Assembly (NCBI RefSeq): GCF_964204645.1
Contig: NC_134028.1
Coordinates: forward strand, 24,340,153 to 24,404,152
Direction of reading: 5' to 3'
Source of the DNA: Tubulanus polymorphus
Lineage: Eukaryota; Nemertea; Palaeonemertea; Tubulaniformes; Tubulanidae
DNA length: 64,000 nucleotides
Shown here: piece after piece, positions 11,742-56,885 of the stretch
How the letters are laid out: the number at the start of each line of letters is the position of its first letter
Position numbering within the stretch: the stretch's first letter is position 1
The notes under the pieces: model-generated
Database searches by the model: none
Told to the model about the DNA's origin: nothing
Seen by the model: the letters and a program-made list of their open reading frames with translations, nothing else
Program-made: the position numbers and the translations under genes

Positions 11742-13070
11742 TCAGACTTTAGGTATGTAGTCCAGACAATCGTCAGGACATTGTTTACCAATGAGTTGTT
11801 CCTCTTTGCTAGTCAACGCTTGATATTTGAAGGTCATGCACGAATAAATATAAGCAGTCCCATTGACAACATTACCTGAAGAAAAAATCAGCAAAACTGT
11901 TTACGATACTATAAAATCATGTTAGTGTCGGATATTTAACGAGACCATCTCGTTTATATAGCCAATCTAACGGCATTAAAACAAGTCTTACAATACCACA
12001 CGACTGTACAAGGCCCAGAGAAAATAGAAAAATTCGATCTTGCAAACTAATGAATCAGATTTGTGGGATTCGAACCACCAGTAATCCGTGCACTACAACT
12101 TACCAGCTAGCAAGTAACGACTTTCATTCTGTAGATAGGCTCCGCACAAGGCTCCATCTGAAGGAGTATATATTTCCATTGCATCGTTTATCGGATTTTG
12201 TTTGAAAATTTCCGTTTTAGAACCTTTTACCTACAAAAACCACCGAATGAATACAATAAATTTGACGGGTCAAAGACAGGGATCAGTAGCACAAGCCAAA
12301 CGTATTAGATTGTAAGATTGGTTATAAAACAGGGAACCTTTTTCCACAGAACACCTATACAATCCCATTAAATCAGATTCTTTTGTCGTCGTGACTAGTT
12401 AATCGTTGAAATTCAAGTCAGTGAAACAGTTCCCAAGATGTGTTTTAGGTTAAAAGTTAAGGTACCTAAGGCCCAGCTTAATAGCCGCATAACCGCAAAC
12501 TATCAGTGCATATATGGCCAATGATACTGAGGTACTAACCCGGGCTATTTCCAACAATGTAGTAGTGTATACGCGATTATCCCCAATGACTTCATTGCTT
12601 TCCACCTGGACACGGATTACTGAAAGTAATCAAATTGGCGTATATAAAAAGTACCCAGTAATTGACCGTAATTGGTTTTTCGAATTAAAAGTTAACGGGC
12701 CCTTGGGGTCTTGGGTGTTTAAACCAATGATTTTCCTTTTCAAAATTCAAAAGACCAAGGATAGACTCTTTATATTCTTTGTCTTTCAAACTCTGCTCCA
12801 ACCATCCGCATTTCTTTTGGGAACTGAACTCGGGCTGATTAGGCAGGGTTTCGGGTCGTGGCCGGCTCGATGCCATCAGGCTCGAATCCTTGCCAAAGCT
12901 CAAAAGGATTTCGATTTTTCAAGGATTTGAATAATTCGTGGTTTACCGAAATCATTGTTGCAGTATAGGTCCATCGCAAGAGGAATAATAGATGGGGGCA
13001 TACAGGAACAAGCCTCCGATCCCGCTGCCAATGACGTCACCAATATAACCACGGAAAGAATGAGCTTCAT
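11742..13070 (-). CDS. TIMP-like secreted metalloproteinase inhibitor, single N-domain (TIMP-A)
   Basis: Four exons on the minus strand: 13070-12947, 12619-12540, 12230-12104 and 11875-11742. They join in phases 1, 0 and 1 to 154 codons plus TGA, with GT/AG at every junction. The signal peptide is residues 1-20 (MKLILSVVILVTSLAAGSEA). The mature protein starts CSCMPP, the Cys-X-Cys N-terminus that in TIMPs chelates the active-site zinc of metalloproteinases. Cysteines lie at mature positions 1, 3, 17, 77, 103, 123 and 127; the first six fit the N-TIMP disulphide set. The TIMP-like blocks YTPSDGALCG and YLLAG are present. Possible N-glycosylation sites are NES and NGT. It stops 11 residues after the sixth cysteine, so the C-terminal TIMP domain is absent. 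Family assignment is firm; the target protease is unknown. Confidence 0.88.
12104..12230 (-). other. TIMP-A coding exon 3
   Basis: 127 nt, with acceptor TTTTTGTAG and donor CTG|GTAAGT. It encodes residues 69-110, including the TIMP block with Tyr-Thr-Pro and the fourth conserved cysteine (LCGAYL). Listed separately because it is too short to stand out as an ORF. The same-length exon in TIMP-B is 22286-22412. Confidence 0.85.
12847..12895 (+). repeat. tRNA-like (SINE-type) remnant in TIMP-A intron 1
   Basis: Contains a decayed B-box-like GGCTCGAATCC after a short stem-like segment, antisense to the gene. The orthologous place in TIMP-B (23218-23265) keeps the better GGTTCGAATCC, so the insertion predates the duplication. 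I could not fold a full cloverleaf. Confidence 0.35.
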
Positions 13071-14031
13071 CGTGTGACACTATTCAATATGGAAACCTGT
13101 GATAAAACAAAACTCAAATTTCAATGAAATGAAAATAACGAGATGGAAAATGTTCTTCAAAAATACTATCAAGTAATTTGGACCCGGGCCGTATTTACAG
13201 AATACTATCTAATAAAACTAGAAACGCCTGTGAATTGGGCCCGAAATTGGTTTTATATAGAAAGAGTTCCAAACGCACAAAAAAATCGTTCTTCAATTAT
13301 TCTTAATGGCAGCAAAAATCGTTCTTCAATTATTCTTAATGGCAGCAGATTCGAGCCATTGAGTAAAAATCACATTTGAATCATTTTTTCTTTGAGGTTT
13401 TGAAATAGGTTGTTTTTATCCAATTGATTTGAGATGAACGGCGCTCAGTAGCGATTGATTTTCGATAATTACTCGTACAGATTTTCCTTAGAAAATGGGA
13501 GGAAATTAAAGAAAATGAGAAATAATTTTTTTTTATAATAGGCGCTTCAAATAGATATGAAAAGGAAAAAAAAGTGAAAATAATTTTTTTTAATCATTTG
13601 AATAATTTCGACATACGGACTTTAAAGATAAAAGCGGAGTGAAAATTGTGTTTCAAAAGATAAGAGAAATGAATAAAAATAGATTTTTGCAAATTACGAT
13701 ATATAAGACGGAAATAACAAAAAGAAATCATCACTTTCTTAAAATTTGATTGATTCTGCAGGACTCCGGAAGGTGGGTCCATTCTAAGTGATTAACAAAT
13801 AAGGCATAAGGAAAAACCTTTTTTATCATTGTTCTAATCTTCGCGACTTACTTAAAGAAATAAGCGGCTGAAACTTTCTCTGTTTAAACAAGCGTTTGAA
13901 AATAAGGATCGTTGAATACAAGCAAAGCTAATAAACAATCATCTTTGTGGTATTTATAAAATCTATTTTTCGACGTCAGTGAATCAGAAATTTACTTCTC
14001 GTACTTCTGAAAAAAAGTAGCCGCGTCTTAC

Positions 14032-14094
14032 CTTCTTTCTTCAATGTGAATATTAAGTCTCCTCTTTTTTTTAAATGAAGATCGCAGGCTTATA
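14032..14094 (-). promoter_or_regulatory. Putative TIMP-A leader exon and TATA box
   Basis: On the minus strand, TATAAG (14094-14089) is followed about 57 nt downstream by a donor, AAG|GTAAGA at 14032/14031. This suggests a very short 5' UTR exon spliced over about 1 kb to the ATG exon. The same TATAAG-to-donor arrangement, 55 nt apart, is conserved in TIMP-B (24346-24286). The start site itself is not visible. Confidence 0.5.
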
Positions 14095-15616
14095 TGAATT
14101 TCTAGTTGAATCGTATCGGAGTTACCAGGCTGCGCGGAGGATACGGTTCATCAGATCGAAAAGATAAGTTTGCTTTTTGCATTGTTTACGCCCGTTCCGC
14201 GATTGTTTTAGGATCGGTGACATGTGGTTTCTCTCATCAGACAACGTGCGTGCGTTTCACACAATAGAATCTTATCTATTTCACGCATGACGTGTCAAGA
14301 TGCAATCAAAACATATCTATTGGGACTGATCGAACATTTTGAAAAACAATCCTAGTGTCATCGACTTTAAGTATTCCCTATGCTATAACGGAAGTATTGT
14401 ACTGAATTTATGTAGCCGTGTTCCGAACACATAGCTTTTAGTTAAATAGAATTGAGTTGAAAGAAATGTATCTAGTTTTCGATGAGTCGATGAATTTGCT
14501 CCAGATGTTACCGCGTGTTTAACGTCCATATGGAGCTAAATGTGGAACGGAAATATTCTTCTTTTTCAAATTCTTATTTGCGGCTTTCCCGAAAGTCCAA
14601 CAGGTGCATTTTCCTTCGGCTGGGATTCGAGCTTGATGGTACGAAACCCAGCCTGGTGCACACAATACTCTGTGTCCCAGACAGCGCATATCAGATTGCC
14701 CGTTTTATAATCACTTAGGCAAATTCGTCTGGATAGACCAGGCCACCAGGACCCAGTTCTACAGCTGTGAGTAGAGATTTGACTCGGAGTTAACTCTAAC
14801 TCACAACTATGGAACTGAAATCTAGGCTGAAAGTAAACAAACTGAATTTCTGATTGGCTAATAATAACATCACAACAACGCACAAAAGATTCTTTATTTT
14901 GTAACGTGTCAGAATCAAGTTCCGTGCCGGGAGTAGAAGATCGCGTTGATAAATAAGCAAATGTCACCATCTCAGCTCTATGGACCACACATCGAAATCA
15001 GACATTGTTTTGTTCAGAAAAGCCAACCGTTCAATGCCTGCTTGTTGGTGCATAGTAAAAGATGATGGAAAAAGCACTTGTGTTCATTCATTGATAAAAT
15101 CCATAGATATGTATGTATATTGTTTTTCTTTTTTTAGGATTGAAAGAAAACAAAACGCTGTTTCGAGGACATTTCCTGTTGGTCGACGCCACACGACAAA
15201 CAACCCCTGAACATGGTTTGTTTCAAGGCATGGCGGCGTTTGTGAAACAGTGTATATTTTTTTAGCGTCAAATCATCAACTTTTGAAGTCGAAGTTTAAC
15301 CGCGATTAAACTGGATTGCGAAAGAGCACGCATTTCATCAAACGGGTGATTATCATCTACTTTCGCGATTACGTTTCGTCTTCGATGGTATTTGTATCCG
15401 TCGACGGAGGCTTAATGATTCTTGCCTCGAAATATCGCAATTAACGTCTGCGAATTATACCCCCTTCCGCTATCGGAAGCCAGCTCTAAAATAAATGGCT
15501 TGTTGCTAAGCTGCGGTACGTTTTCGATTTTCTATCATCTGCCATCGGTAGTGTTGGGAGAAAAAATCTCGCACGCGACAACTGAAAGGGGAACTGCGGC
15601 AATCGAGGATTCCACT

Positions 15617-15641
15617 TATGGCAAGCGAGGATCCACCAGGT
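15617..15641. repeat. Dispersed short motif related to the 79-bp minisatellite
   Basis: GGCAAGCGAGGATCCACCAG matches the complement of the minisatellite unit. Similar copies are at about 19806-19830, 32141-32155, 42356-42370 and 63776-63791. Probably the conserved end of a short interspersed element. Confidence 0.5.
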
Positions 15642-16028
15642 TCGCTAGTAGTTACTCGGTCTCGCGTTCAGTTCCTTCTACATTTCATCTGAATTCGAAT
15701 GAACCTCTACCGTTATCGTTTAAATGAATCAATTATCAAAGAAAATGCAGAAAAAAGGAAAAAGAAAAATGAATTCATTGTATATTTAGCGGTTCTACGT
15801 ATCACACCCCAACCATTTCAATGGTACAAGGAGGAGAATTACAATTAATTACAAAAACAGAAAATAAAAGCATTTTAAAACATAACAAACGTTTATTTAC
15901 AAGTTACATAATATATACATTTTATGTTTTGGATTTTTATACATCAAAGTTCCTAAAGGTTAGACTGATTGCTCGTCACGCCATCTGGTAGAATAGTTAG
16001 TGTTGCAGCTCTCCATAACCTGCGCAAG

Positions 16029-19000
16029 ATGGAACAGGCGGTGCATCTAGACCAATTCAAGCATAACAACACGACTTCTCTAACGTCGCAAGGTAGCGGT
16101 GTGCCGGTCGACACCGACGGCGCTCTGTTCAAACTGCAATTCGTTCAGTACGGGCAGTGGCTGCAGAATCACTCGTTACTAAAATCAAGACACATTCCAT
16201 TCGACATCCATTATTCGCTGGAACGAATCGACGACACGCCGAAAGCCTTTTTGATTTTAGCTTATTCGATTATCACCGTATTAGCTATCGTCGGTAATGT
16301 GCTTATCTTATGCGTGCTCGGACTGAGCAAGCGGCCGTCGACCGAGCGAACGTTGACGATCTATTTTGCAAATCTCGCCATCGCCGATATTTTGATGGCT
16401 TGTTTCTGTATTCCGTTCACTTTTACGCAGACGATTCTACGACGTTGGATTTACGGTCCTGTAATGTGTCCGCTCGTGTTGTTCATGCAGGTTTTGTCGG
16501 TGACGTGTAGCGTGTTTATCTATATAGCTATCGCTATAGACAGGTACGTACGAAAGTGAGTTTTGAATTCTGAAATCGGCAATCGACTTGTTCTGATTGG
16601 TCCGTGTTGTTTCAGCGGGACCAATCAGAACAGGATATTTATAACGGTCTTGAAAATATCCTTTTACGTATGAAATTTCGAGTTCTAAAAAAATCACGTG
16701 GCCACAAAATACGTAAATATTCTTTCATATAAAAGCGCTTGTGTATTTACAGGTTTTGGGCCGTGTTGTATCCGATGAAATTAAGAATGGGCAACGTCGG
16801 CTCCCGCGTGGTCTTACTGATAATCTGGGTAGCGGCCGGCGTTTTCTCTACATTTCAAATCTTCCTGGCGCGGTTACAGGAAATGTCGACGACGACCCCT
16901 AGCGGCGTTAAAGTACACTACTACGTTTGTAACGAGGTTTGGTCGACGGACCGACAGCGAATGATCTACTCGATAGCTATGACTAGTATTACTTACGTGA
17001 TTCCGTTCTTCCTGCTCACAGTTATGTATTCGAGGATCTGCTGCGTTCTTTGGGGAGATCTATCGGTGTCGGGGGTTAATCAACGAATCGATGACTGTCA
17101 GATCAGTGTCAAAAGAAAGGTAATGCATTTCAATTTATCACCGATCACGATTTATTTATGATAATGACGCCACGAACCCGTAAATGATCGATGTTGAAGT
17201 AGCACTCTACAGCAGACGCAACGTGACGTAGACTGGTGTGTCAAACCACCAAACAAATCTGTTATTAACTATTTTATGAATTGCTCATTAGTTAAGTACT
17301 AATAATAAATGATGAACGACGAAAGGATAGGACTATAGATTAGTATAACGGCTATTATCAAATGCATTCTACAGAAATGACTTGAACAGAAATGTCTCGA
17401 GCAGTCCGCTGGAAGAGAGGCAATATCTCGGAATGGCTGGAACAGGGAATTCCACAACGTTGGCTGAAAATGTCCAAAATGAACGTTCGCCAAATGACTT
17501 CAGACGATAAGATATATTTGGCCAGAGCAGCACTTCAGCGCCCACCTAACGCCATAATGAAAGAATATTTTCCTCGCATTAAGTGATGAACTCTATTTTC
17601 CTATTCTTTACTCATAACTATCCTTTGCTTTATATTCTCTTCCTATACGTTCTTAACACCTTTCAGAACATCATAGTTAACCAAGGACTGCTATATCCAA
17701 TTAAATCTTTTCAATCTTTGATTCAGATTAGGTAATTTCCCGCAGAAAAAGAATTAGATATGAAATCAAATTGCAAGTTTGATTGACATCTTGATTGATA
17801 TTCTATTTTTCAATGCCAGGTTACCTCATACAAAGATTATCTAGTTCAACTAATTTTTTCTAGCCATACTTTTCTGAAAAAAAAAACAGCAAAAGAGATA
17901 TTGAATGATTCAATTCTTTTGCAGGCGACGAAAATGTTGATCGCTGTCATTGTCGCTTTTGGGATTTGTTGGTTTCCGTTGAACTGCATCAACTTGATAA
18001 TGGACACGGCACCGGATTTTTTCCAGACGATCCTGACCGGTGCTGAGAAGCAGTTCGCCGCGGTATTCTACACCTGCCACTGGCTTGCTATGTCGCACAG
18101 TACGGCTAATTTCGTCATATTTTTGTGGCTGAAGAAAAGTTTCAGGGTTTGTAATAATCAGCATAATCTCTTACCAAAGAAGAATCCCTTGCAGAGCTCA
18201 AGACCTGGATCTGCGACGTTATGTTCATTCATCTCGAGTTATTTTGATTATTCACTCGTTTGTATGAGTTGATAGTGTATACGACAATCTGTCATATAAC
18301 CGTGAAAAATGTTTCGAAAACAATATTTCGTGTAAAGGGTCTTACAGTTATTGAAACCGACATCGCATAGATAACCATAGCAGTGCCGAAAATTCCATGG
18401 ATGAATTCCTGGTGAATTTGATAAAGTAGGGTGTATTTCCAGATCTTAAATGATTTCATTTGTTGTAAAGGCCTAAAAACGTTTTTATTTGCAAACTTAC
18501 ATAACTACATAACCAAGATTTGACCCCATAGAGTAAAAACATTGGCAATGAAAACCGAGAACTGTGGAGCTTTGTCCATCGAAAAACCTAACTTAAATCG
18601 TTTTGAATATTGAAATATCTATTGAATTTTCCAGGAAGAACTGACGACAATGATGAGAATCTGCTGCTTACGAGCGACAAATCGTAATTCGAAACTCCGA
18701 CCAACCGACGATCTACAAAAAACACGCCACGTGGCCTTGACCGTGAACGCTTCGTCGGTGCGTACTCGGAACCCGTCTAAACGTCTGCGCAAACTAATGT
18801 CGGTTCGTTCGTCCAGCGGAGAAGAATCTGCCCAATCACCGCACACTCCAGTCAGCAGGATCGAACTATTTTTGTAAGCTAACCTTTTTGAATTATTTGG
18901 ATGACAGAGTTTTCTTTACAGCAAATTATTAGCCCTGACAACTAACTAGTCGACTATTCACGAAAACCCAGGTTCGTCTCACCCGATACGGCACAGAGGC

Positions 19001-19440
19001 ACTCTGGCTTGTCTTGGTGAGCGGTCTCTCTTGTCAATACAGGTTTCGCGGGTTGTCGAGTTTTGGACCTGCTAATAATTCGACGAAGTGGCACTCACTG
19101 TTCTGAGGGTCGGATAATGGTCTCATATGCATATATCGGATAAATGAACGTTGTATTCATTTTCAGCTCCGCAACGGACGAAGACGAGGACGCATTCGAA
19201 GACAACGTCTCGACGAATCTGACGGCGGTCAACTCGAAAAAGCGGACGAACTCCGGGCCGGATTTCTCGGTGCCGAAATTAAAGAATCTACTGAAAACTA
19301 ACGCGACTCTCACGGTGGATTTGGACTGGCAGCCGATGCAAGAGATTGGGTTATTAAATACATTCGCGCACCTGTCCGCTGAGAACGTTCACAACGAAGC
19401 GGCGACTAACGGCCATTCTGTGAACGAAACGAATGTATGA
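16029..19440 (+). CDS. Class A (rhodopsin-type) neuropeptide-like G protein-coupled receptor
   Basis: Five coding exons: 16029-16543, 16753-17119, 17925-18146, 18635-18873 and 19167-19440, total 538 aa, all with GT/AG borders in phase. The ATG is chosen because an acceptor (GTGTTGCAG) ends at 16008, just before it, implying an upstream leader exon. Landmarks: GNVLILCVL (TM1, Asn90), NLAIADILM (TM2, Asp120), Cys147 and DRF (171-173) at TM3, second-loop Cys in YYVCNEVW, CWFP in TM6, and HWLAMSHSTANFVIF in TM7. A Cys-Cys pair after helix 8 could be palmitoylated. The N-terminus has two N-glycosylation sequons (NNT, NHS). The pattern resembles the tachykinin/NPY/RYamide-type peptide receptors; the ligand cannot be named. 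DRY is DRF and NPxxY is NFVIF. Intron 2 is small-repeat rich. Confidence 0.88.
17392..17586 (+). CDS. Small ORF within GPCR intron 2, unrecognised
   Basis: A 64-codon ATG ORF starting MSRAVRWKRGNISEWLEQG and ending KEYFPRIK. Its composition is protein-like, rich in Arg, Lys and Trp. It is not part of the receptor reading frame. The DNA immediately after its stop (17575-17650) reappears at 25229-25310. It could be a fragment of an inserted element, an unused exon, or chance. I do not recognise the family. Confidence 0.2.
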   Translation: MSRAVRWKRGNISEWLEQGIPQRWLKMSKMNVRQMTSDDKIYLARAALQRPPNAIMKEYFPRIK

Positions 19441-19805
19441 GCATGATTACACGACTTTTGAGAGCCTTCATTTTCTCTTTTATGATGATTTGTTGTAATC
19501 CAGAAAAGTTATCATCCTCGCAGAGCTTTTTGTACCCCGAGATCAGATTTTTGAAAGAAACGAGGGACCGTGAATTTTAAACAAGTCACGATATTCACCA
19601 ACACTTTTGTTATCATAGATGATTGAATTGAGTTTCACCCTCATTTTTTCAATCGGTTCATTTTCTTTGGGTTCTTTGTTGTATAAGTTATAGCCTTAAT
19701 AGTGTATTTAAATGTTTGTATTCCATCCCAAAATGGTATAATGATGAAAGCATATATATACCAAAAAGTCATCCGGGTAATTGAATGAGGGCTCCGCAGT
19801 CGGTT

Positions 19806-19832
19806 GTGGCAAGCGAGGATCCACCAGGCTCG
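19806..19832. repeat. Dispersed motif copy in GPCR 3' region
   Basis: GTGGCAAGCGAGGATCCACC, the same motif as at 15617 and as the minisatellite complement, here about 370 nt after the receptor stop codon. Confidence 0.5.
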
Positions 19833-20653
19833 CGAGTGTGCATTCGACAAGGATGTCGAGTTTCTTTCCAGATTCTACTAAAATCTATCCAATACTTCTT
19901 ACATTCTATGAATGATGAATAAATGTATCCGAGATATCCAAAATACTTGTTTGTAAATATGTCATGCTTCCAGGATGTTTACTTAGAGATCTTACTCTAT
20001 CAATAAATTGATTCACTGATTTATATTGAGAGGCGAAAAAGAGATTGTGTTTTGCTTATTCTTGTTTAACGTGATTTTTTTCGTATAACAAAATTACTGA
20101 TATACTCAATTATACTAAATCATACGTAATAATGATATTGCCGTTTACAATAGATATAATCGTTTATATAACTGTTTGTAACTTTTATTGTCTTTTCATT
20201 TTTTCCAACCATTTGAACTATTCATTTTTGTTCAAAGCAGTGTTGGTTATGTATAAGTCTTCGAGTTAGACAGCGCCTTGCTCTTTCGTCAAATGGTTGA
20301 GATTTTGAATAATCAGATTCCAATCCCTAAGCGTTTAATGACTATAAAGTACAACGGGTAAACTAATGAGGATGGTTGTTGAATGTTGGAAGGCGAATGA
20401 CTGGTCTATCTATAATTCCAACGACTGATGTATTGACGTAAATACCACCGGGTAAAATACAAATCTTTAAAACATAGAGCACTAGAGCCTTTTGGATTAC
20501 ATGTTGGTCAATGATTGCGCGTAAAATGGTCTGTGAAGAAAGTGTTTATAAATCCGTGTGTTAAGATGACAGCCATCATGCAGCCATTAGGCTTTGCTGG
20601 TCTTGCATTGTGTATCATGTACATATTGTATTGTACATAATATTTTCTATGTG

Positions 20654-20659
20654 AATAAA
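20654..20659 (+). terminator. Possible GPCR polyadenylation signal
   Basis: AATAAA followed by a T-rich stretch, about 1.2 kb after the receptor stop. Several other A/T-rich signals lie between, so the true 3' end is uncertain. Confidence 0.35.
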
Positions 20660-20798
20660 GTTTATTGTATTATACAATATTGTTATTTATCGTTAACCGT
20701 CTCGACCTGGGGCGAACTTGGGTTTACGTAGTTAGTCGAGTCGGGGCTAGTAATCAAACACACGCACCATAGTTCCATAGTTCGATCATACGCATTTC

Positions 20799-21490
20799 AC
20801 AGTGTCGGCCATCTTGGAACTAGGTCTGGTTTCCGTTGCATGGGTCGCTAGACGACTAACTCCGATAGCCGACGTTCGCCCAGACAGTGGATATCTAACA
20901 TAATGCTTACACAACCAGGTAATGTATGAAAATACCATAATAATAATGATAGATAATATAAGTCCGAAAATGAGGCGATTCCTGAAGATGACTGTTAGAA
21001 TATTGTCAAAACGTCGAAAATTAGCTGAAGGAAACGTTTTCGGACCTTATACTATTTTTCGTTAATAATTGTGGGAATCTTTATACATTATCGTCACAAC
21101 ATAGTATTCCATCAATGGTTAGTACACAACCAGAAGATGCCACGACCACAAACTATGGTTCGGTTTTTTATCTCGTATTTTGACCGCACTCGTTTTCGAT
21201 CATCTTGGCGTCGCCGAGTAAGAGAAGCAACTATTGTTTACAACATACATTGATTCGATTTTTGCGAACACGGAACACGCGGCCACCACTAAGTTCAATA
21301 AATTGCCCCAATCAGTGAATCATCCCCGCAGCTCGGTTTTGTTCTCTTCACTTGCTCGACGCTTATGTATGTAATTGCAACTACCCCGCGTTAGAACGCG
21401 TAAAACATAATCATCTTCAAATAAGAAACGTTACGCTTTCATGCGCAATGTTTCTATTTGTGACTAGCACTGCGAACGTCCAGTTTTCAT
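20799..21490. repeat. Direct repeat R, copy 1
   Basis: Partner of 25800-26441. The first part (to about 21110) is diverged and contains a GAAGATGACTGTTAGAA / AACGTCGAAAATTAGC motif dispersed in the window. From ATCAATGGTTAGTACACAAC at 21111 to CCAGTTTTC near 21488 the two copies differ at only a few bases. R1 lies directly before TIMP-B. No convincing protein is encoded: the frame differs between copies by one T in a T-run. Confidence 0.85.
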
Positions 21491-21606
21491 AGTTATCGTC
21501 ACGGACGAAACGGAGGTCTGGTAAGGTCAATGGGTGTCCAGTAACGTTTCGTAAACGTTTATGTATAAAATCGAAAACGAACGATTTACAGTCACAACAA
21601 TTTTAG

Positions 21607-21612
21607 TTTATT
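21607..21612 (-). terminator. Polyadenylation signal of TIMP-B
   Basis: TTTATT on the plus strand (AATAAA on the gene strand), about 220 nt after the stop, in the same context TTTTAGTTTATTGC as in TIMP-A. Confidence 0.6.
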
Positions 21613-21827
21613 GCGTCGAATAAGTCCGTTCAAATATCTTCCAATATCTAGTTTCAAAACATTCGAATTCGTGTAAAATATATTTTGAAAAAGGCTACGG
21701 TTTCTTTGAATTATGCTGTATTTATATGAAATGGTTCCCTCTATTCATTATAATAGTAGTTATAATCACGATATCTTTTACACGGTTATTATCATGATAT
21801 ATACGATGGTATCATCATTCAAGAGAC

Positions 21828-23455
21828 TCAGACTTGAGATATGTAGTCCAGACAATCGTGAGGACATTGTTTACCAATGAGTTGTTCCTCTTCGCTAGTC
21901 AACTCTTGGAATTTGGAGGTTGTACAGGAATATATGGTAGCTCTCCCGCTGGCAACATTACCTGAAGAAAATGTCAGCAAACTGTTGAGGTTCTATTTAT
22001 GAAAATCTGTCAAATTTGGGCGGATCCAGAGACTGATTTTGAAGGAATTGTCACAGCCCAAAAGGGCACTTTGAAAAAGGAATGTTAAGCGCATTCCTGC
22101 ACTGAAATTCACCAATTGTCTTTGTTGAATGAAAAATGGCACCAATAGAATTTGATGGACTTGTACAAGTCTCATAAGTCCCCCGGGATCTGACCCTACA
22201 AATCGGGAGTGTACTAAAGAAAGTTCTTTCATAACAGATTTTGTGGTATTCGAACCCACCACCAGTTGTAATCAGTACAACCTACCAGCAAGGAGGTAAT
22301 TCCCTTCATTTCGAAAATTGACTCCGCACCTGGCAGAATCTGAAGGAGTGTATATTTCCATATCTTCACCAAGCATAATATTGTTGAAAATTCCCGATTT
22401 TGAAGCTTTTACCTATAAATATCGCAAAATGGATGAATTCAAATTTGACGGTCAAAGACAGAGATCAGTTGCCAATCAGGGATAAAGTCTAATGTATTGG
22501 ATCGTTAGATTAATTATAGAGTCTGCAGGTGATACGTTCCACAGAACACTTATAAAATCCCATTTAATCTTCAATTTGTATTACCGGTATCGTGACTATT
22601 TGCCTAATCTTATAAGTCGTTCTGTGAAACGATGTTTTAAGTTAGTGATTTAGGTTAAAGGAAAAGCCCCTAAAGCCGAGCCTTATAGTAACGAAACCGC
22701 ACACAGCAATGCATATGAGAAATGATACTGAAGTCAAGTTTTTACACAATTATCGATTTGTTTTTTTCATATTTTTGACTGTACTAACCCGGACTATTTC
22801 CAGCAATTTAGCATTGTATACGCGATAATCCCCAATGATGTCGTTCTCTCCCAGATGGGCACCGATTACTGAAAGTAATCAAATTTGCAAATATACAAGT
22901 ATCAAGTAATTAACCGGCCCTTAGTCGATGGAGGTGCCGATTGTACCTAATAGGATCGGATTTATGACCGTTTATGACTTTTAACCAAGGTTTTAAACTT
23001 AATCATTCATTAGTCAAAAATAGCCGCGGGTTATAACTAATCTTTACATGAGTAGACCCGAGAGTCTTGAGTGTCGAAACCAATGATTTTCCTTTTCAAA
23101 ATGTATAAAACCAAGGATTGACTTTTGTGCTCTTAGTCTGTCGAACCCTAATTCAATCATCCGAGGATTGCTTTTCTTTTGGAATCCGGACTCGGGCTTA
23201 TCGGGCAGGGTTTCAGGCCGTGGCCGACTCGATGCCACCTGGTTCGAATCCAGGCCGGGGACCGATGAGTCGTAAATACATTTTTTGTTTTTTCTAATTG
23301 AAAACTCGGATTTGAATAATTCGTGGATTACCGAAATCATAACCGCAGTATTTTTCCATCGTAAGAGGATCCAAATATGGGGGTAAACAGGAACAAGCCT
23401 CCGAACCCGCTGCCAATGACGTCACCAATATAACCACGGAAAGAATGAGCTTCAT
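21828..23455 (-). CDS. TIMP-like secreted metalloproteinase inhibitor, single N-domain (TIMP-B)
   Basis: Four exons on the minus strand: 23455-23332, 22868-22789, 22412-22286 and 21961-21828. Their lengths (124, 80, 127, 134 nt) and phases are identical to TIMP-A, giving 154 aa. The 20-residue signal peptide is identical to TIMP-A at protein level, with one silent base change. The mature protein begins CSCLPP and keeps all seven cysteines, YTPSDSARCG, NYLLAG and the tail GKQCPHDCLDYI. By hand alignment about 53 of 134 mature residues differ from TIMP-A. All frames are open and splice sites intact, so it appears functional. Intron 1 is a little over 450 nt and contains a tRNA-like remnant. As in TIMP-A, the C-terminal TIMP domain is missing. 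Confidence 0.88.
23218..23265 (+). repeat. tRNA-like (SINE-type) remnant in TIMP-B intron 1
   Basis: Carries GGTTCGAATCC, a good RNA polymerase III B-box, after GTGGCCGACTCGATGCCACC. No complete tRNA fold was found, and a more decayed copy sits at the same place in TIMP-A. Confidence 0.4.
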
Positions 23456-24285
23456 CGTGTGACACTATTCAATATGGAAACCTGTGATAAAACAAAACTC
23501 ATATTTCGATGAAATGAAATGTTCTTAAAAAATACTATCAAGTAATTTGGACCCGGGCCGTATTTACAGAATACTATCTAATAAAACTAGAAACGCCCGT
23601 GAATTGGGCCCGAAATCGGTTTTATATTGAAAGTGTTCTAAACGCGTCAAAATCATTCTTCAATTATTTTAATGGTGGCAGATTCGGAAGGAAAATTGAA
23701 ATAAGAACAGGAAAAATGGAAAATACATTTTCATCATTCGAGTATTTCCCCCATACGATCTCGGAAGGACTGGAGAATAAAACAAAGAGTGAAAGTTGTG
23801 ATGAAATTGAATTCAATCGATTGGAAAAAGGAAAAAAAACTTTTTGCAAATCGCTAGATTGGAAATTGAGACGGCTATAAGAAAAACGAAATTGATGGAA
23901 AAATTGTGATGAAAACACGAAGTGGGACTAAACAAAAAGGATTTCTATTTAATTTGATTAATTATGCAGAATTATGGGAGAGTCTAATTAATTAACAAAA
24001 TAAGGCCTTTGTAAAATCCTTCAATTATTGTTCTAACGACACGACGAAATAAATGACTTTGAACTTCGACTTTGAAAACTTTCTCTGTTTAAACAAGTGT
24101 AACTTTGTATGTTTAAACGAAAGTTCGAAAATAAGGGTCGCCGAATACAACGAATCCTAATAAACAATTATCTTTGTTGTAATTATAAAATCTGTTTTTC
24201 TACGTCAGTGAATCAGCAATTTTCTTACTACAGGTAGATCTTACAGGCTTTCTTACCAGATCGTACTTCTGAAAAAATGTCTTAC

Positions 24286-24346
24286 CTCCTTTTCTATAGT
24301 GAATATTAAGTCCCCTGTTTTTCTCAGTGAAGATCGCAGGCTTATA
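24286..24346 (-). promoter_or_regulatory. Putative TIMP-B leader exon and TATA box
   Basis: TATAAG (24346-24341) and a donor (GAG|GTAAGA at 24286/24285) on the minus strand, mirroring TIMP-A. The stretch CGCAGGCTTATATGAATTTC and about 50 nt upstream of the TATA box are nearly identical in both genes. Confidence 0.5.
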
Positions 24347-25228
24347 TGAATTTCTAGTTGAATCGTATCGGAGTTACCAGACTGCGCCAAAGATACGGTT
24401 CGCTTGATCGAAAAGATAAGTTTGCATTTTGCAATCTTTATGTTCGTTCCGTGATTGGTGACATGTGGTTTAAGTGTGTTTCGCACAATAGAGTCTGATC
24501 TTCGTCGCGCATGACGTGTCAAGATATAATTTAGCCAAACTCGTGCCATACAATGTTTTGTGGTACTTTTTCTATTGGGGACTGTTCGAACATTTTGAAA
24601 AAAATGATAGTGTCCTTTGATATTAAGCAATTCCTATACTATCGGCGGAAGTGTTATACTGAATGTATATTGTCGTCTTCTGAACACGTAGTTTTTAGTT
24701 CTATAAAATGAGATAAGATATGTATCTTATTTTGAAGGATCGATGAATTTGCTCCAAACGTTACCTCATTTATAACGTCCATGCTGAGCTAAACTTAAGG
24801 CTACGAAACCCAGCCCGGTGCACTCAATACTCTGCTTCCCAGACAGCGCATAAAAGATTGCCCGTTTTATAATTAAGCAAATTCGTCTGGATAGACCAGG
24901 CCACCAGGACCCAGTTCTACAGTTATGAGTAGAGATTTGACTCGGAGTTAACTCTAACTCACAACTATGGAACTGAAATCTAGGCTGAAAGTAAACAAAC
25001 TGAATTTCTGATTGGCTAATAATAACATCACAACAACGCACAAAAGATTTTTTATTTTTTAACGCGTCAGAATCTATCGATGTCATCAAGTTCCGTGGCG
25101 GGGAGGGGGTAGAAGATCGCTTTGATAAATTAGCAAATGTCACCAATAGAATTGACTGATATCAGTCACAGTCACTTCGCAGCTTTAGAGATCACACATC
25201 GAAATCAGACATTGTTTTGTTTAGTTAG

Positions 25229-27630: not shown

Positions 27631-27633
27631 TGA

Positions 27634-34660: not shown

Positions 34661-34661
34661 G

Positions 34662-41755: not shown

Positions 41756-41767
41756 GTTTAGAAAATA

Positions 41768-47700: not shown

Positions 47701-50338
47701 GAGACATGCCACCTCTCAATGCGCATAAAGGTAAAAAGTTAATACGTTTCTTATGGCAGAAAAATCTCTGCCTATCCGTACATAAAACTCGCAAGTTTGT
47801 TTTACCAACGTAAATGTTTATTTCTCGAAACGTAAACGTTTAATTGGTTTGTAAACACAATATGGTTATCTGTTTCGGAATTTGCATCGCGCTGCCACGA
47901 TCCAAAAGACCGCTACGATTCTAGTCCAGTAATTGTGGAAAGAAAAATTTGACTGCGCGACACGCCTCACTAGAAAATATTTTCGAGGCTGAAATTTCAT
48001 TAAAAATCGCATTTCAAACTACGACGAGTGAAGTGCCATCGAAAAGAAACGTAACGATAGTCTAAACAACTTAGTAGAAAGTTAGTCGAGACCTTGGGAA
48101 AGCTAAGTTGTCGTTTGAACCGAACAAGTTTTAAAAAGTTAAGAAAACAAGAAAAATTCTCAAAAAGAAAGATAGTGAAAGACATAGTACGTGTCTGATC
48201 GTACGAAGATGTGCGAGGTTTAGTAGTTGATCTTACTGACTTTAAGCAGTAGTTGTTTAGTGCTAAAACTACTTCTAATATTCTCTCTCAATGCGCGTTA
48301 TCAAATCAGATACCGCACGTATGCCAACCGCTTCATAAACCGCAGAAACGCCGACTTCGTTCTCACCTCCGACGATGAATGTACGCAGTCGTCGAGTTAG
48401 GCGCTAAGTTGAAAACAAAGACCGCAGGGGATAGGATCAAGTGAAGAGAAAACTAAGAGAGTATCGACGTTTCGATTCTAGTCTATGAGCAGTTTTCGGA
48501 ATTCAAACTAAAACTATAAACTTAAAAAGACAGAAAAATTGAATAAGTTGAAACGTATCAACCCTCTCTTAGTTTGTTTTAGATAGTTATGGGTTTTTTC
48601 TTCGATTAAATCATAGACAGCGACTCGTCTAAATCCCAGGGATACGGTGTAAATCTACTGCAGGTTCGACTCGCCGCAATGAATAGAAGCTTTGTGACTG
48701 AACGTTATTTCAAAAGGGTCCAACTTCAAGTAATTTGCGCAGATAAAATTCAGTTCAGCCGAGGGGCGTTTCTTAATTTCGGGTTTGTTTTTCATTCGAA
48801 AACTCAATTATGAAAACTCAACGGGGAACAAAAATTCTTTTCCGACCTTTTTAATTTTTCACGAAGTTTTGACGGAATTTAGGGTGGTGGATCCGTATTT
48901 AAATCAATTTCCATTCGTCCCTAAATTGATAAAAGAATCGCATTGATTTGTAATGATCGTTTTCTGATTTTTTCTCACAGTTGCCGATGGTTTACAGTAT
49001 GAACAAGGCGGTGGGGAAAATAGCGTCGACCAAACAAACGCCCGCGAGGTGTTCTCAAAAACTGACCAAAAACGTATGACCTACCAAACCGACAATAGCC
49101 CGGTTGGTATATATATGATTGACCTGTTAAGTAACGGAACAGACAGTAGCATTCGAGTGTTCGCCACATCGAATCCTTCGATAGACTGGCCATATCCGGA
49201 CCTTCCGGGTAACAAGAAAATACGGGTGACGCGAGCGACCTCGCGAAGTTTGCGCGTTTCGTGGGATCCGAGTCCGACGCACGCTTTGCTCGGACAAAAA
49301 GTAAAATATTGCGTCGCTTTGCGGCGTCGAAAGCATTCTTTCAGCCACTGCGACGCTTTGGCGCAGGTGCGCGGTGATATCCCGCCTACGGTGCCGCCCA
49401 ATGCCGGTTTCGGTTGGGGTTGGGAAAAGGACATACGCAAACGAATAAACGCTAAACGCAAGCTTACACGACCGAAAAATCGAAACGTGAAATACGCCTG
49501 TGTCGGTAAAAAGAGGCGTTATAGATTTCGGGGTCTACGACCCAAAACGAGGTATTACATCGACGTGTTCGCAATGAACCCGTCGAATAACGCGAGTGTG
49601 CGGTACACGGGCACCGTATCGCGCACTAAACCCAAGGTGAAATCGACGAGAATCGACCACGGGCGACTGGCGGCCATTTTACTTCGCAAAAGAAACGGTT
49701 ACAGGCGATACAGATTACGCGTCAGACAATCGACGCCGAAATTGACAATTCAAATATTGTCGTGCGACGGTCAAATCAGCGCCGATATCGTGCGCGACAG
49801 GAAAGTGTTGAAAAAAGAAACGTTCAAAGGTTTAAAAACGATCGAAATTGACAAGGTCGATAAAGATAGCAATTACAGCGTGAAACTAATTTTAGAACAC
49901 CGACGGACTGGGTTAGTGAAGCTGTTTTATACTACAGCTGTAAACGGAGTGTTACCACTGCCGAGAATATCAAACGACACCAGCGTGAAAGTATTCGAAC
50001 ATTTAACTACTTGTAATTCCGTAACAGTGGCCTGGCTGGGCACCGAGGATAATCTAAAATACTGTTTATACAAACGAAACGTGAATACGAACGATTACCA
50101 ATCGACGTACTCGCAGAAGAGCCAGTGTTTGCGGCGCGGTAGTCGGACGGTCGGGAAGAGGGTTATGTGCAGGTCGTTTCGAGCGCAAAACAACAAGAAA
50201 ATGGTGATGACGCAAACGATTACGGGTCTAGCCTCTGACACGCAGTATGAATTCAGCGTGTACGTATCGAATAAATTCGGCGAGTCGATATTATATCAAT
50301 CCGCCTACACGAGAACTAAAAGACGCTGTTCGAAATGA
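41768..50338 (+). CDS. NDNF: NDNF/Nord homologue, secreted fibronectin type III protein
   Basis: Three coding exons: 41768-41976, 47615-47730 and 48981-50338 (phases 2 and 1), 560 aa, near the usual vertebrate NDNF length of about 568. Exon 1 encodes a signal peptide (cut probably after TRA at residue 28) and the block PDGIEVTTYLFRGETQ. The small exon 2 gives RYFFIVERNTPVSIIVTPC, typical of the NDNF N-terminal domain. Exon 3 has GIYMIDLLS, a fibronectin III domain from about residue 188 (YCVALRRRK, YYIDVFAMN), a beta-rich middle, and a second FN3-like domain from about 445 (SVTVAWLGTEDNLKYCLYKR, YEFSVYVSN), ending in RRCSK. In vertebrates NDNF is a secreted glycoprotein; the fly homologue Nord modulates Hedgehog/BMP signalling. 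Introns are 5.6 and 1.25 kb. An acceptor just before the ATG implies an upstream 5' UTR exon. Confidence 0.93.
42050..42125 (-). repeat. tRNA-like (SINE-type) segment in NDNF intron 1
   Basis: On the minus strand GTGGGTTCGAATCCCTTGAC is a strong B-box, preceded by CGTGAGGTCAAGGGGTTCGG. No full cloverleaf is evident. A dispersed GGCAAGCGAGGAT motif follows at 42356, so a larger composite SINE of about 350 bp is possible. Confidence 0.4.
42469..42616. mobile_element. MITE, GCCCGACGC-terminus family
   Basis: TTAAGTCCAACGCACATGA at the left and CGTAAGCGTTGGGCTTTC at the right, with GGGAAACA and TGTTTCTCG internal blocks. About 148 bp, inserted in NDNF intron 1. Confidence 0.65.
42913..43480. other. 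Two opposing open stretches in NDNF intron 1, unrecognised
   Basis: A minus-strand ORF (43128-42913) includes VAHFVCGFVVSYLTENIYSG and ICERKPKCQTVFLL. A 120-codon plus-strand ORF (43118-43480) follows back to back. Neither shows a known domain or splice-supported structure. They may be part of an old inserted element. Confidence 0.2.
44392..47600. other. NDNF intron 1, remaining part
   Basis: Short ORFs at 44738-45135 on the plus strand read like degraded coding sequence but are broken by stops and match nothing I know. Otherwise anonymous AT-rich intron. Confidence 0.35.
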
Positions 50339-51631: not shown

Positions 51632-51639
51632 AAATATTG

Positions 51640-53820
51640 TTTCAATGTGGTCGTATTGAACCGTTGAATGTTGTGTATCTCATTATAAAAAGAAATCTAT
51701 GTAAAACAAGCCTGCTTCAGAATGTCTTTCAGTGCTACAGAATACGCACACGATACTGAAAAAAATACTAAGCTTTCAATTGATTACTAAGTGAACTTAT
51801 GTCATTGTAGCTTTACTGAATGGGGGTTCGGAATTAATTTTTGAGCAGCCATCTTGGCCGGAAGTACCGCTGAGGTTGGTTATTTTGAACGGATAATTTT
51901 GGCCGGAAGTACAGTACCTCTGAGGTTGGTTCTTACTAAAATGGCCGCTCGGAAATCAATAGATAACCAATTCAATATAGCTCACTCCGGACTGATGTCC
52001 GAGCGGACTATTGCGTTCACTTTAAGTCCGTCGTCCGGACGTTCGCCTGTCCGTTAACAGAATTCAGTTACTTTGGAAAAGTTTTGAAGACGCTTCAAAT
52101 TATACATGCATCTGTCCTAGATAAATCTGGATAAATACATGCATCTGTCCTGTCCCATATACAATTTGTCTATTCATATTTGTACCTTGCATATTTTGTA
52201 ACCGCAATCAATTGCAAAGTTGTAGCTCATGGCATGTTCTATGATTGCGGTGAGTTTCAAGGTCGTTGTTTTAGTGTATATTTACCAGGGGGCATTGAAT
52301 AATGAAATCATCAGATTGTTGAGCATCTCAAACCACTTCCTAAGTGGGCGTGGTGTCCCTCGACTCCTAGTTTAGATGATTAATGTACAATTGAATGCGC
52401 CTGATACATGTGTATGTGCTATGATAGTATTGCAGTATACACCTATCATCATGAGCGACGCGGAAAAATTACGCTCTCCACCACTCGTTAATCCGACATC
52501 AAAGCATTTTAACCCAGCCATTGACAGACTCCTGATGAATGTGTCTGGCAAAGCCGCGCTACTGACCTTTAGAGTATGCACACCAAAAATGGTTAGACGA
52601 CGAACACACTAACTGCCGAAACAAGACTTAATATCTATGTAATATCATAGAACTCAAACCAAATTTGATTTGAGTTCTATGGTAATATATCGCGCTCGAT
52701 GTAAATGGTTTTAAATATTGATCTTTTCGCATCACTAGGGCTCTGATCATTATTCGTATATATTGCAACTGTTGTAAATAATATAAACAAGGCCAGTATA
52801 CGAGACGTGTCATAGTCGTTTCTTTTTTCTCAATGTAAATTCTGATAATAGAGGTCGCTCGTTGCATGTGACGGATCGTTTGTTCGTGAAGCCATTCAAA
52901 GCGCTACCGAAAATCACAACCAAAATACCGCAATTTTTTCTAATTTCATTAGATTTTTGGAAACTATTTTTAATCCCGTTTCTAACACGCTTATGAACGA
53001 CGTGGTTTGACCGGTCAAGTATTACATTTGCATAAAATGGGGATAAAGGAACAAGTGGGACATGTCCAGTGAACATTAACATAGAATGGGGATGTAGAAA
53101 CTACCGAGATCGGTCATGCAAATTTTCGATATTGCACGCCCATCAATATGACGTCGTCATGTGACCAAAGCGTGACCTCCATAGACAATTGGATGAGTAG
53201 AGCCATCCATGCTAGAACACACAAGATATACTTATTACTGTACCATTAATGTTTCCTGTGCCACTTTACTGAAAACAAATTATTTGCGCAGACTACGGAA
53301 ATTTATCAAAGATGAAAAGACAAAAAAGGTGTAAAATATGTATACAATATATTTATTCTTCATATGTAAAAAAAATCATACTGAAGTAAATGAAATAAAA
53401 TGCTTTAAATATACATTTTCCGTTTCGTTTCTGCCATACGGTTCATTCATTTGTTCGTTCATTCGTTCATTCGTTCGTTCCACAATAGCCCTGTTACCAG
53501 CCCGATCATCCGGGGACCATTAGCTGCTGGTTGTTACTAGTTCTAGTTTAGTTAAGTTTAGTTTACTTTGCTCACTAAAAAGAATTTAGCTGAAGAATCT
53601 ACAATTCATGTGTTAATACATGTGTCGGTAGGACAATATTTAAAAAACGTCTATAATTTACACTACACATTTCATTTACAACAAAAGCAGAGATAATATT
53701 TTCGATTCATTCGTAGAAAATTGTGAAATGATGACGTTACAGTAAATACAATAACCAAATCGTGAATTCATTAATGTTCAAACTTACTTATACAGTACTA
53801 TCGACTGTTACTCGAAGTTC
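51640..53820. other. Intergenic region with small repeats
   Basis: A two-copy repeat (CTTGGCCGGAAGTAC / TTTTGGCCGGAAGTAC with CTGAGGTTGGTT) lies at 51853-51930. A 12-bp stem hairpin with arms ATAGAACTCAAA and TTTGAGTTCTAT lies at 52647-52682. A TTCATTCGTTCG tetranucleotide run spans about 53442-53480. No gene recognised. Confidence 0.45.
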
Positions 53821-53895
53821 GATGAAATGCTGGAAAAATCCAATATTGAATTTAGATTAAAATCTGTTTTTTTAAGGCGGCATCTGTCGCTTCTG

Positions 53896-53940
53896 TATAA
53901 ATATTCGAATCGTAGGCCCCTGATAGAATACTGTTTAAAG
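53896..53940 (+). promoter_or_regulatory. TATA box and leader exon of TIMP-C
   Basis: TATAAATA at 53896-53903, then a donor AAAG|GTAAGTGA at 53940/53941. An acceptor (TTAAAGCAG) ends at 54029, two bases before the ATG. The transcript would thus have a very short non-coding first exon and an 89-nt intron. The region is conserved upstream of TIMP-D. Confidence 0.6.
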
Positions 53941-54031
53941 GTAAGTGATGCGCGTATATTTATTCTCGTGGCCGAATTATTTATTGCAGATATATTTAAA
54001 GATAACCGTTTGATTGTAGTTTAAAGCAGAT

Positions 54032-54791
54032 ATGGCGAACATCATTTTGAGTTTGGTTGTTGTATTGACGACTTTGCTGGTTTTCGGCAAGACGTGTTCA
54101 TGCCCCAACATGCAAAAACCACTTAATGAAAGGTTTTGTAGCGCCAATTTTGGTAAGATTGTTATCACTCCGACAAAATGCGAGGTTTATTAAATAATGC
54201 CAAAAGTCGTTTTAAATAGATCATCATCCAACATAGTGTTATCAATATTTTAGTTATCCTCGGTAGACCTAAGAGAAATGATACGTTCATCCAGTCTGGA
54301 CTGGTCATAGAGAATGATATGAGCGTTTTTGCGGTTTACAAGGTAATTTTCAATAAACCAAAATCACAACCGAGACTCGACAGATTTTACACGCGGCCTT
54401 CTATTAAACCGTTAGACATCCCGGAGACCCTTACCAAGACTATCAACACATCATATTATTTGTGGTATTTTTGTTGTTTCGTTGCAGGGAAACAAATACC
54501 AAGATTTCTCGAAGATATATTCGATCGCGCAATCAGCAGCATGCGGAATGCGTTTAAGGAGATGGGTTATCTACGTTATTTCTGGTAAGTCTTTAAGTAT
54601 GTGTATTCCGACCTGTTTCTAGAGTTAAGATTCATACATAGAGTCAATTAATGAACTTACAAATTTTGCGGCGTATTTCAGGTTGGATAAACAGCGATGG
54701 AAAACCTTATTTTAACTCATGTGGTTTCTCCCGGAAATGGAAAAGTTTGACAAGCGACGAGCAAAAATTTCTGATACAAAAAGAATGCTGA
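54032..54791 (+). CDS. TIMP-like secreted metalloproteinase inhibitor, N-domain only (TIMP-C)
   Basis: Exons 54032-54152, 54254-54342, 54488-54584 and 54682-54791 (phases 1, 0, 1), 138 aa. Signal peptide residues 1-21 (MANIILSLVVVLTTLLVFGKT). The mature protein starts CSCPNMQKPLNERFC, then VILGRP (second strand), SVFAVYKG, SAACGMRLRRWVIYVISG and SDGKPYFNSCGF. The last codon before the stop is Cys138. Cysteines at mature positions 1, 3, 15, 68, 95 and 117 are exactly the six of a TIMP N-terminal domain. Asn49 is in an NDT sequon. The exon phases match TIMP-A/B, so all four genes share one ancestor. No C-terminal domain. The expected role is extracellular inhibition of zinc metalloproteinases; this is family inference. 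Confidence 0.9.
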
Positions 54792-54852
54792 ATCGACGCA
54801 ATAACTTCTATCGAAATCTTCATCATTTCATTTTTGTTTATTTCTATTCAGA

Positions 54853-54858
54853 AATAAA
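54853..54858 (+). terminator. Polyadenylation signal of TIMP-C
   Basis: AATAAA 62 nt after the stop codon, in the block GAAATAAATTGACA, conserved downstream of TIMP-D and in a third relic at 57266. Confidence 0.65.
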
Positions 54859-55379
54859 TTGACAATTCTTTCCCTTAACATACATGTCTTACATTTGCGA
54901 AAAGCATCGATTTGTCAATTGCTAAGAGGACGTGGGACAATGTATATTAGTTTTTTGGAACTATACAAATGAGATCGTAACGACGGAATGCTCCACATCA
55001 GCGAGAGTGGTACATGTATAAATCTGTTGGAGAGAACAGGTTCATACCGTTCGTAGAAATGAGAGTTAAATTTGTAATCCAGGCAGCAACATGAATATTG
55101 AAGAATAGCGACTAAATATTACATTCAATCGAAAGCCTTTGAACCCCTTAGTTCCAGGTGTTTATATATATATTTGGAATGATATGATATATCAGTATAC
55201 AAAGTGTGAAAAAACTCTGTTGTCAAAAGGCTTGACAAATCATCGATATTGAACCAGCACTAAAAACGTCTATATCCTATACGTCAGGTGTTTCGTCAAA
55301 GTACCTTATAAATGTTGAAAACACATCTCAAGTATGAATTTGCCTAAAATATGAAATATGATAGTAGAGGCAGGGGACT

Positions 55380-55520
55380 ATTTGATAAAGTCCATTCCAT
55401 AAACAATGTGGAGCAGTGTGGAGTTTGGGGTGCCAGATGGTGGGTTCGAACCCCTTTCATTTATGTAGTGAACCAGGGCAAGACCTAATGTGAGGGGGCA
55501 GTACCTGGTCTGATAGATTA
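55380..55520 (+). repeat. tRNA-like (SINE-type) segment between TIMP-C and TIMP-D
   Basis: GGTGGGTTCGAACCCCTTTC is a good B-box. An A-box-like part may lie upstream near GTGGAGTTTGGGGTGCC. No complete tRNA fold was found. Confidence 0.35.
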
Positions 55521-55885
55521 ATCCTGGGCAGATAGATCTGTAACTTTGATGTAACTTCTGCGCTCAATTGGGAACACGCCTTGTGAGTTTGAGTAGTAGA
55601 TCTGGTGCCACTATTCTCAATGAAGAGATGACTGTCGTCTCGACTGTCTAGAGTGTCACTGCTTCTCTTCTGTTCCCATTTACATTAGGCGTTAGAAAAC
55701 AACGGACAGAATTATCCATTTCTTCATCGAAAATCGTTAGATATTCGTTTTTAAGTAAAATGCGCCGAACTTACATCATGAAAAGTACCATCGACTTTTA
55801 CTCGATATGATCGATCAAATACTGGAAACAACTAATATTGAATTAAGATTAGAATGTGTTTTTATAAGGCGGCAGCTGTCGCTTC

Positions 55886-55931
55886 TTTAAATACTAGCAT
55901 CGTAGGCCTGTCATAGCATATCGGCTGAAAG
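55886..55931 (+). promoter_or_regulatory. TATA-like element and leader exon of TIMP-D
   Basis: At the place of the TIMP-C TATA box this copy reads TTTAAATA. The donor AAAG|GTAAGTGA is at 55931/55932 and the acceptor AAAAGCAG ends at 56135. The leader intron is about 204 nt, against 89 in TIMP-C, owing to added AT-rich sequence. Confidence 0.5.
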
Positions 55932-56137
55932 GTAAGTGACGCACGTATATTCATACTGGTGGCCAAATAATTCATTATAAATGAATAAATACTTTCATAA
56001 ATCACCAGTTGTCAAATTAGTTTCATCAAAAACTATTATCAGATGAGAATATACCTTCATCATAACAATTCAGTTTGAGCTGTATATATTTCTTTTCATA
56101 ATATCATTAGAGTAAAACCGTTTGATTAAAAGCAGGC

Positions 56138-56885
56138 ATGGCGAACATCATTTTGAGTTTGGTTGTTGTATTAACGACTTTGCTGGTTTTCGGCGAGACG
56201 TGCCGTTGCGCCCGGCAAAAACCACTAAGTCAAAGGTTTTGTGAGGCCGGATTCGGTAAGATCTTTATCACTCCAACAAACATACCATAATTACTGTAAC
56301 CACTGGGCGTGAAAGAATGCCAAAAGTCGTTTTAAATAGATAATCATCCGACATAGTCTCTTATCGATCGTTTAGTTATCCTCGCTGGAACGATAAAAAA
56401 TGATACGCTCGTCCAGTCTGGACTGGTCATAGAGAATGAGATGAGCGTTTTTGCAGTTTACAAGGTAATTTCCAATGATCCAATGTAACGTCTGACACTC
56501 GACAAACCTTAGCCGGGGTTTAGTTTCACGCCGGCATGAACGTACCGTTATCTGCATCGTTTTTGAGTGCTGTTTTATTGCAGGGTGACAAATACCAAGA
56601 TTACTCGAAGATATATTCCCGCGTTGGATCAGCAACATGTGGAATGCGTTTAAGGAGATGGGTTATCTACGTTATTTCTGGTAAGTCTTTAAACATGTTT
56701 ATTCCGCCGACCTGTTTTTAAAGTTGAGATTGAAACATAGAATCGATTAATGTATTTAAATTTTGCGTATTTTAGGTAGGATAGGGAGCAATGGAAAACC
56801 TTACTTTAACGTGTGTGGTTTCAACCGGCAATGGAATGATTTGACAAGCGACGAGGAAAAGTTGCTGATACAAAAAACATGTTGA
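56138..56885 (+). CDS. TIMP-like secreted metalloproteinase inhibitor, N-domain only (TIMP-D)
   Basis: Exons 56138-56255, 56376-56464, 56584-56680 and 56776-56885, 137 aa, intact. The 21-residue signal peptide differs from TIMP-C only by Lys to Glu at position 20. The mature protein starts CRCARQKPLSQRFC, with one residue fewer than TIMP-C before the third cysteine. All six cysteines are kept and the chain again ends at the sixth (QKTC). The block CGMRLRRWVIYVISG is identical to TIMP-C, while the N-terminal wedge and later loops differ. The NDT sequon is kept. Position 2, which in TIMPs points into the S1' pocket of the protease, is Arg rather than the small residue seen in TIMP-A, B and C (Ser). 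A changed specificity or a weaker inhibitor is possible. Confidence 0.9.

Follow-up and report, generated by a model that had tools for sequence, protein, structure and literature searches.

Four single-domain TIMP-like genes in two tandem pairs within one 45 kb stretch

Gene structures and family membership

We describe four genes, here called A to D, that encode single-domain proteins of the TIMP family, whose members hold tissue-remodelling enzymes in check. The genes lie in two tandem pairs, A/B and C/D, within a 64,000-nucleotide stretch of DNA (the window; C4:24340153-24404152). The assembly totals 267.8 Mb and comprises 77 contigs. Positions without a contig name are those of the window. 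Genes A and B are on the minus strand, A at 11742..13070 (exons 13070-12947, 12619-12540, 12230-12104 and 11875-11742) and B at 21828..23455 (exons 23455-23332, 22868-22789, 22412-22286 and 21961-21828). Genes C and D are on the plus strand, C at 54032..54791 (exons 54032-54152, 54254-54342, 54488-54584 and 54682-54791) and D at 56138..56885 (exons 56138-56255, 56376-56464, 56584-56680 and 56776-56885). A preliminary description of the window had proposed these positions, with four coding exons per gene, intron phases 1-0-1 and a mature Cys-X-Cys start, and splicing confirmed the positions, the exon number and the phases. All 12 introns run from GT to AG, the phases are 1-0-1 in every gene, exons measure 80-134 nt, and none of the four spliced frames contains an internal stop. 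The products comprise 154 (A and B), 138 (C) and 137 (D) amino acids. Each has a hydrophobic leader followed by Cys-X-Cys; the leader and its cleavage site were assigned by visual inspection. The predicted mature proteins begin CSCMPP (A), CSCLPP (B), CSCPNM (C) and CRCARQ (D); residue 2 is thus Ser in A, B and C, and Arg in D. There are seven Cys in A and in B, and six in C and in D.

All four spliced proteins match the Pfam TIMP family (PF00965) above its curated cut-off of 23.1 bits, in line with the family assignment of the preliminary description. The scores are 53.5 bits for A (E 3.3e-14, profile positions 1-126 of 183), 34.3 bits for B (E 2.7e-8, 1-132), 43.0 bits for C (E 5.6e-11, 2-125) and 44.1 bits for D (E 2.5e-11, 1-124). 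Note that the splice sites were chosen to yield a TIMP reading, so it is the Pfam match that serves as an independent test. The cut-off of the wider NTR family is passed by A only, and B falls just under it. Among PDB structures, A and C, each searched singly, matched TIMP-1 (4.2e-6) and TIMP-2 (1e-5), respectively, and a joint profile of A to D matched the N-terminal domain (N-domain) of TIMP-2 (2tmp, E 3.7e-11). The six N-domain Cys are invariant across the four proteins, and align with those of human TIMPs and of a two-domain paralogue from the same genome. We consider it very likely that A to D are single-domain TIMPs by descent. Among 2199 pieces of open reading frame (ORF) in the window, the joint profile recovered its own 16 exons at E <= 7.2e-6, as it must by construction, and no fifth TIMP gene: the next piece scored E 0.36, near the best of the reversed control (1.8).

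As the preliminary description had foreseen, ORF-based annotation would miss all four genes, none of which appears whole among the 26 window ORFs of at least 110 amino acids. Exon-wise family searches miss such genes as well. When PF00965 was searched exon by exon across the genome, one exon of C scored, below the cut-off, no other exon of A to D did so, and 0/4 genes rose above the cut-off. An intron-aware gene finder should still detect them.

Candidate signals of transcription flank the genes. AATAAA lies 3' of all four stop codons within the inspected stretch. A possible promoter of A (13193..13257, minus strand) combines TATAAA at 13257-13252 with a donor-like GTAAAT at 13198-13193, which may mark the end of a non-coding first exon. 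B repeats the 59-base spacing between the two (23626 and 23567). The promoter signal of A is weak, since 25-47% of upstream stretches contain a TATAAA after shuffling. Similarly weak is a possible promoter of C (53896..53946, plus strand; TATAAA at 53896-53901, donor-like GTAAGT at 53941-53946). D retains the donor-like site (55932), and its sole TATAAA (55976) comes after that site.

Proposed duplication history and the single-domain state

Seven collinear blocks of 67-88% identity link 11466-21488, which holds gene A, to a shrunken copy at 21567-26440, which holds gene B. The first unit also contains a rhodopsin-type G-protein-coupled receptor (GPCR) gene in at least three pieces (15969-18272, plus strand; two of them, trimmed and joined, match 7tm_1 at E 5.8e-32). 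GPCR coding exons are absent from the second unit, and the three pieces have no other match in the window at E <= 0.1. This suggests that A and B arose by a head-to-tail duplication of ~10 kb that included the GPCR, which would later have been lost from the second copy; the extent of each unit is estimated from its collinear blocks, and inclusion of the GPCR is argued from the flanking blocks and one 71-column block within the GPCR gene. Such a duplication would explain why an unrelated gene stands between A and B. Two further collinear matches (53781-53985 with 55768-55976, and 53990-54925 with 56101-57018) mark two units, 53781..55767 with gene C and 55768..57018 with gene D, and suggest a separate duplication of ~2 kb. 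The cluster would thus have grown through two separate duplications, one of ~10 kb (A/B) and one of ~2 kb (C/D). The 3' flank alone occurs a third time (57235..57360, plus strand; 75% identity to 54818-54944), perhaps as the relic of a further duplication.

The two tandem pairs of the preliminary description are supported, and Pfam confirmed the unrelated genes that it had placed between them, namely the GPCR and an NDNF-like gene seen as a long open piece at 48968-50338 (plus strand; NDNF_C E 2.2e-50). The idea that all four genes stem from one local radiation was not borne out. A/B and C/D are deeply diverged, with mature parts only 26-29% identical, and A scores higher against the two-domain paralogue (55.1 bits) than against C (42.7 bits). 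A small tree was built from A to D, the N-domains of three PDB TIMPs and the paralogue. Its support is confined to the forks of A+B, C+D and the vertebrates and does not extend to two deep forks, so that A/B and C/D do not group with support.

The two-domain TIMP lies at G000:C3:10329-6179 (minus strand), near the start of its contig, which is 27.8 Mb long, and no more than ~10 kb from that end. It has four coding exons, the last of which encodes the C-terminal domain (C-domain), and it fits PF00965 from 1 to 183 (E 6.5e-34). It starts with Cys-Ser-Cys, as do A, B and C, and its first two introns have the same place and phase as those of the window genes. Unlike A to D, it has the C-domain exon and an HPQ motif, and it lacks their third intron. 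This is the one further certain TIMP gene found genome-wide in searches with A, B, C, the two-domain protein and the Pfam profile; D was not among the queries. These searches are insensitive. A, B and C each recovered the window genes of the pair to which they belong; A and B matched the two-domain gene weakly (E 0.05 and 0.02) and C did not match it; A and B missed C and D, C missed A and B, and the two-domain protein missed all four at E <= 10. Because known genes of the window escaped these queries, equally diverged TIMPs elsewhere would be missed too. We left aside weak matches on C9 and at C4:22167848 (E 0.2 and 0.34) and at C3:12055493 (E 0.77). An open piece of 130 amino acids at G000:C2, ~23554925-23555314, starts with Thr-Cys-Lys-Cys soon after a TAG and matches C weakly (E 0.2). 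It has no Pfam match and no relative was found for it; it is perhaps a very diverged relative, or else a chance match.

The restriction to an N-domain, claimed in the preliminary description, stood up. PF00965 is matched within positions 1-132 of 183, and a canonical C-domain with six Cys was not found in A to D, where the end of the profile is uncovered. When the C-domain of the paralogue was used as the sole probe, the best match in the window had E 0.32, against 1.3e-44 for the self-match. The proteins stop on the sixth Cys in C and D, and 11 residues past it in A and B. In the latter pair, the seventh Cys sits in a Cys-X3-Cys whose spacing recurs at the border of the N- and C-domains in the paralogue. 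This likeness suggests that A and B are shortened two-domain TIMPs, with the seventh Cys as a putative remnant of the lost domain. Exon 4 could instead be an alternative ending, if a fifth coding exon has gone unseen and splicing to it makes longer, two-domain forms. Five exons are the rule among molluscan TIMP genes (132/142; PMC10755359), and there are Cys-rich open stretches downstream: one with up to 7 Cys in 46 amino acids lies ~3.3 kb past D, and A and B are followed by 5 Cys in 60 amino acids or less. Set against these are the co-located stop codons within each pair, the lack of a window match to the paralogue's C-domain, and the gap of only ~1.35 kb between C and D, which has no open stretch with more than 4 Cys. 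We regard a fifth exon as very improbable.

The single-domain state may have arisen once or twice. According to a review, single-domain TIMPs are too scattered to represent the ancestral form, and a two-domain TIMP seems to predate the eumetazoan radiation (PMC9409782). If this is right, loss of the C-domain is what produces single-domain forms. One scenario, which we put forward tentatively and think rather unlikely, is that the C-domain was lost twice, separately, at this one locus, and yielded two kinds of minimal inhibitor. Each would then have been duplicated, its mature part diversified and its signal peptide fixed. A and B would keep the leftover seventh Cys, which could link dimers or the matrix; C and D would have been trimmed to the sixth Cys, and D retargeted by Arg2. 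Under loss in general, the present genome, in which one two-domain TIMP has its first two introns in common with a cluster of four single-domain genes, is a good setting for testing how the C-domain disappears.

Probable inhibitory function and sequence change

We read A to D as probable secreted inhibitors of metalloproteinases, each consisting of the inhibitory NTR/OB-fold domain without the C-domain. In the human TIMP N-domain, the canonical disulfides join the first to the fourth, the second to the fifth and the third to the sixth Cys. By alignment, the same three bonds would lock the barrel in A to D. By homology, the leader would be cleaved immediately before Cys1, so that the free amino group of Cys1, together with residue 2, could act as a wedge in the active site of a target zinc metalloproteinase and bind the metal. 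In known TIMPs, Cys1 coordinates the catalytic zinc through its amino and carbonyl groups, and the S1' pocket receives residue 2, which is Ser or Thr (PMC3679795). A, B and C are consistent with this Cys1-Ser2 mechanism, and D has Arg2. Isolated N-domains of TIMPs fold and inhibit matrix metalloproteinases (MMPs) (PMC3679795); without a C-domain, the proteins would miss the extra contacts that it provides. Possible targets exist in the genome, where 17 of 26 candidate pieces match Peptidase_M10 at E <= 0.001 and group into ~9 genomic places.

Several observations weigh against inhibition by a single domain. The Peptidase_M10 profile also scores in 6 of the 14 genomes of a prokaryote control, and some of the pieces may therefore not be MMPs. 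HPQ, which usually follows Cys-X-Cys and is reported to be kept in 70% or more of TIMPs (PMC4807446), is present in 0/4 of our proteins in the alignment. D carries Arg2 where vertebrate TIMPs carry Ser or Thr. The seventh Cys of A and B leaves an odd number. A very diverged C-domain exon could slip past the single C-domain probe. Finally, the ratio of nonsynonymous to synonymous change (dN/dS) in the mature part is 0.91 for A/B (bootstrap 0.56-1.55) and 0.71 for C/D (bootstrap median 0.72, 0.39-1.34), and such near-1 values in both pairs leave room for relaxed constraint.

Change is distributed unevenly along the proteins. In A/B, nonsynonymous changes affect 0 of 44 sites in the signal peptide and 69 of 315 in the mature part (Fisher 6e-5), and in C/D 1 of 47 and 46 of 276 (Fisher 0.006), all counts being rounded. 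Synonymous change is likewise lower in the leader, nonsignificantly (0.18 for each pair). In sliding windows, the 5' part of A and B is 92-100% identical over ~250 bases. Because this conserved block reaches back to ~190 bases before the start codon, gene conversion or promoter constraint may contribute. Gene conversion is a possible cause of the near-identical 5' part, with constraint as the alternative. The upstream flank of C and D shows no better conservation.

The fast-changing mature parts beside a nearly fixed signal peptide are among the points that would fit another function. A to D could be TIMP-fold single-domain proteins that have ceased to inhibit metalloproteinases and were recruited to another secreted role, as has been proposed for some helminth TIMP-like proteins. 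Arg2 in D and the missing HPQ point the same way, and the activity of Ac-TMP-2 has been doubted in print. Conversely, A, B and C retain Cys-Ser-Cys, like TIMP-2; helminth TIMPs that are conserved at position 2 are expected to inhibit (PMC3679795); and the contrast between leader and mature part may partly reflect gene conversion or 5' constraint. We judge recruitment to another role possible and clearly less probable than inhibition. That A to D are decaying pseudogenes, open by accident, is the least credible alternative of all. The near-1 dN/dS would suit decay, whereas splice sites, frames and N-domain Cys are intact in 4/4 genes, and neutral simulations rarely keep both frame and Cys. Of 5000 runs of a simple uniform model of one lineage, set to the divergence seen in the exons, 0.08% (A/B) and 0.5% (C/D) ended with the frame open and every Cys in place. 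Retention of frames and Cys through neutral drift is therefore unlikely. If secreted metalloproteinase inhibition is the correct reading, A to D offer compact natural inhibitors that differ at residue 2.

Other features and comparison with known systems

Away from the TIMP genes, the window contains a tandem repeat at 8610-9076 (period ~79 bases, shifted copies 94-97% identical) and, at 7013-7115, a 103-base stretch that is 87% identical to its reverse complement and may be a hairpin or the end of a mobile element. A long GA/CT simple repeat at 3585-4002 yields spurious Arg-Glu and Ser-Leu ORFs. Scans of the window with Rfam (gathering threshold) and for tRNAs found nothing, and a COX1 search of the assembly recovered no mitochondrial contig.

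Elsewhere in the genome, we detected two tandem miR-1992-like sites 277 bases apart (G000:C1:25379119 and 25379396). A miR-1992 pattern matches 20 of 21 bases at both, and a backward control matched nowhere. The surroundings are predicted to fold as a hairpin of -33.8 kcal/mol. For miR-2012, which we take to be ambulacrarian, a pattern had no genome match with up to one mismatch. miR-1992 is described as spiralian-specific (PMC6468455) and as lophotrochozoan, with a printed seed that fits the sites here (PMC4326209). On this ground the genome probably belongs to Spiralia.

Neither single-domain TIMPs nor tandem expansions of TIMP genes are new; the novelty lies chiefly in the cluster itself and in its origin. 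Among the open-access papers listed in our searches, none was seen to describe clustered single-domain TIMPs from a spiralian. Published single-domain TIMPs come from Hydra and from helminths, nematodes among them (PMC3679795, PMC9409782). Like A to D, those of nematodes and Hydra have only the N-domain, number several per genome, and occur in some phyla beside two-domain forms. A to D differ in belonging to a spiralian-looking genome, in forming two pairs within one 45 kb stretch, and in keeping the six-Cys pattern of the human N-domain.

TIMP genes usually have four to six exons, and they have expanded in tandem in pteriomorph bivalves and exist in many copies in Owenia fusiformis and echinoderms (PMC10755359; for echinoderms also PMC4807446 and PMC8467561). 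As proposed for our cluster, copy number in pteriomorph bivalves is driven by tandem duplication. In contrast to these expansions, we find four clustered copies without a C-domain; the portion of PMC10755359 used here does not sort copies by this domain. The structural comparison is with the N-domains of TIMP-2 (PDB 2tmp) and TIMP-1 (1d2b). A to D share with both the Cys-X-Cys start, the six Cys and a match along the N-domain. They depart from TIMP-1 and TIMP-2, whose N-domain structures we take to be human, in the absence of HPQ, in the Arg2 of D, and in the absence of the C-domain that both full-length proteins possess.

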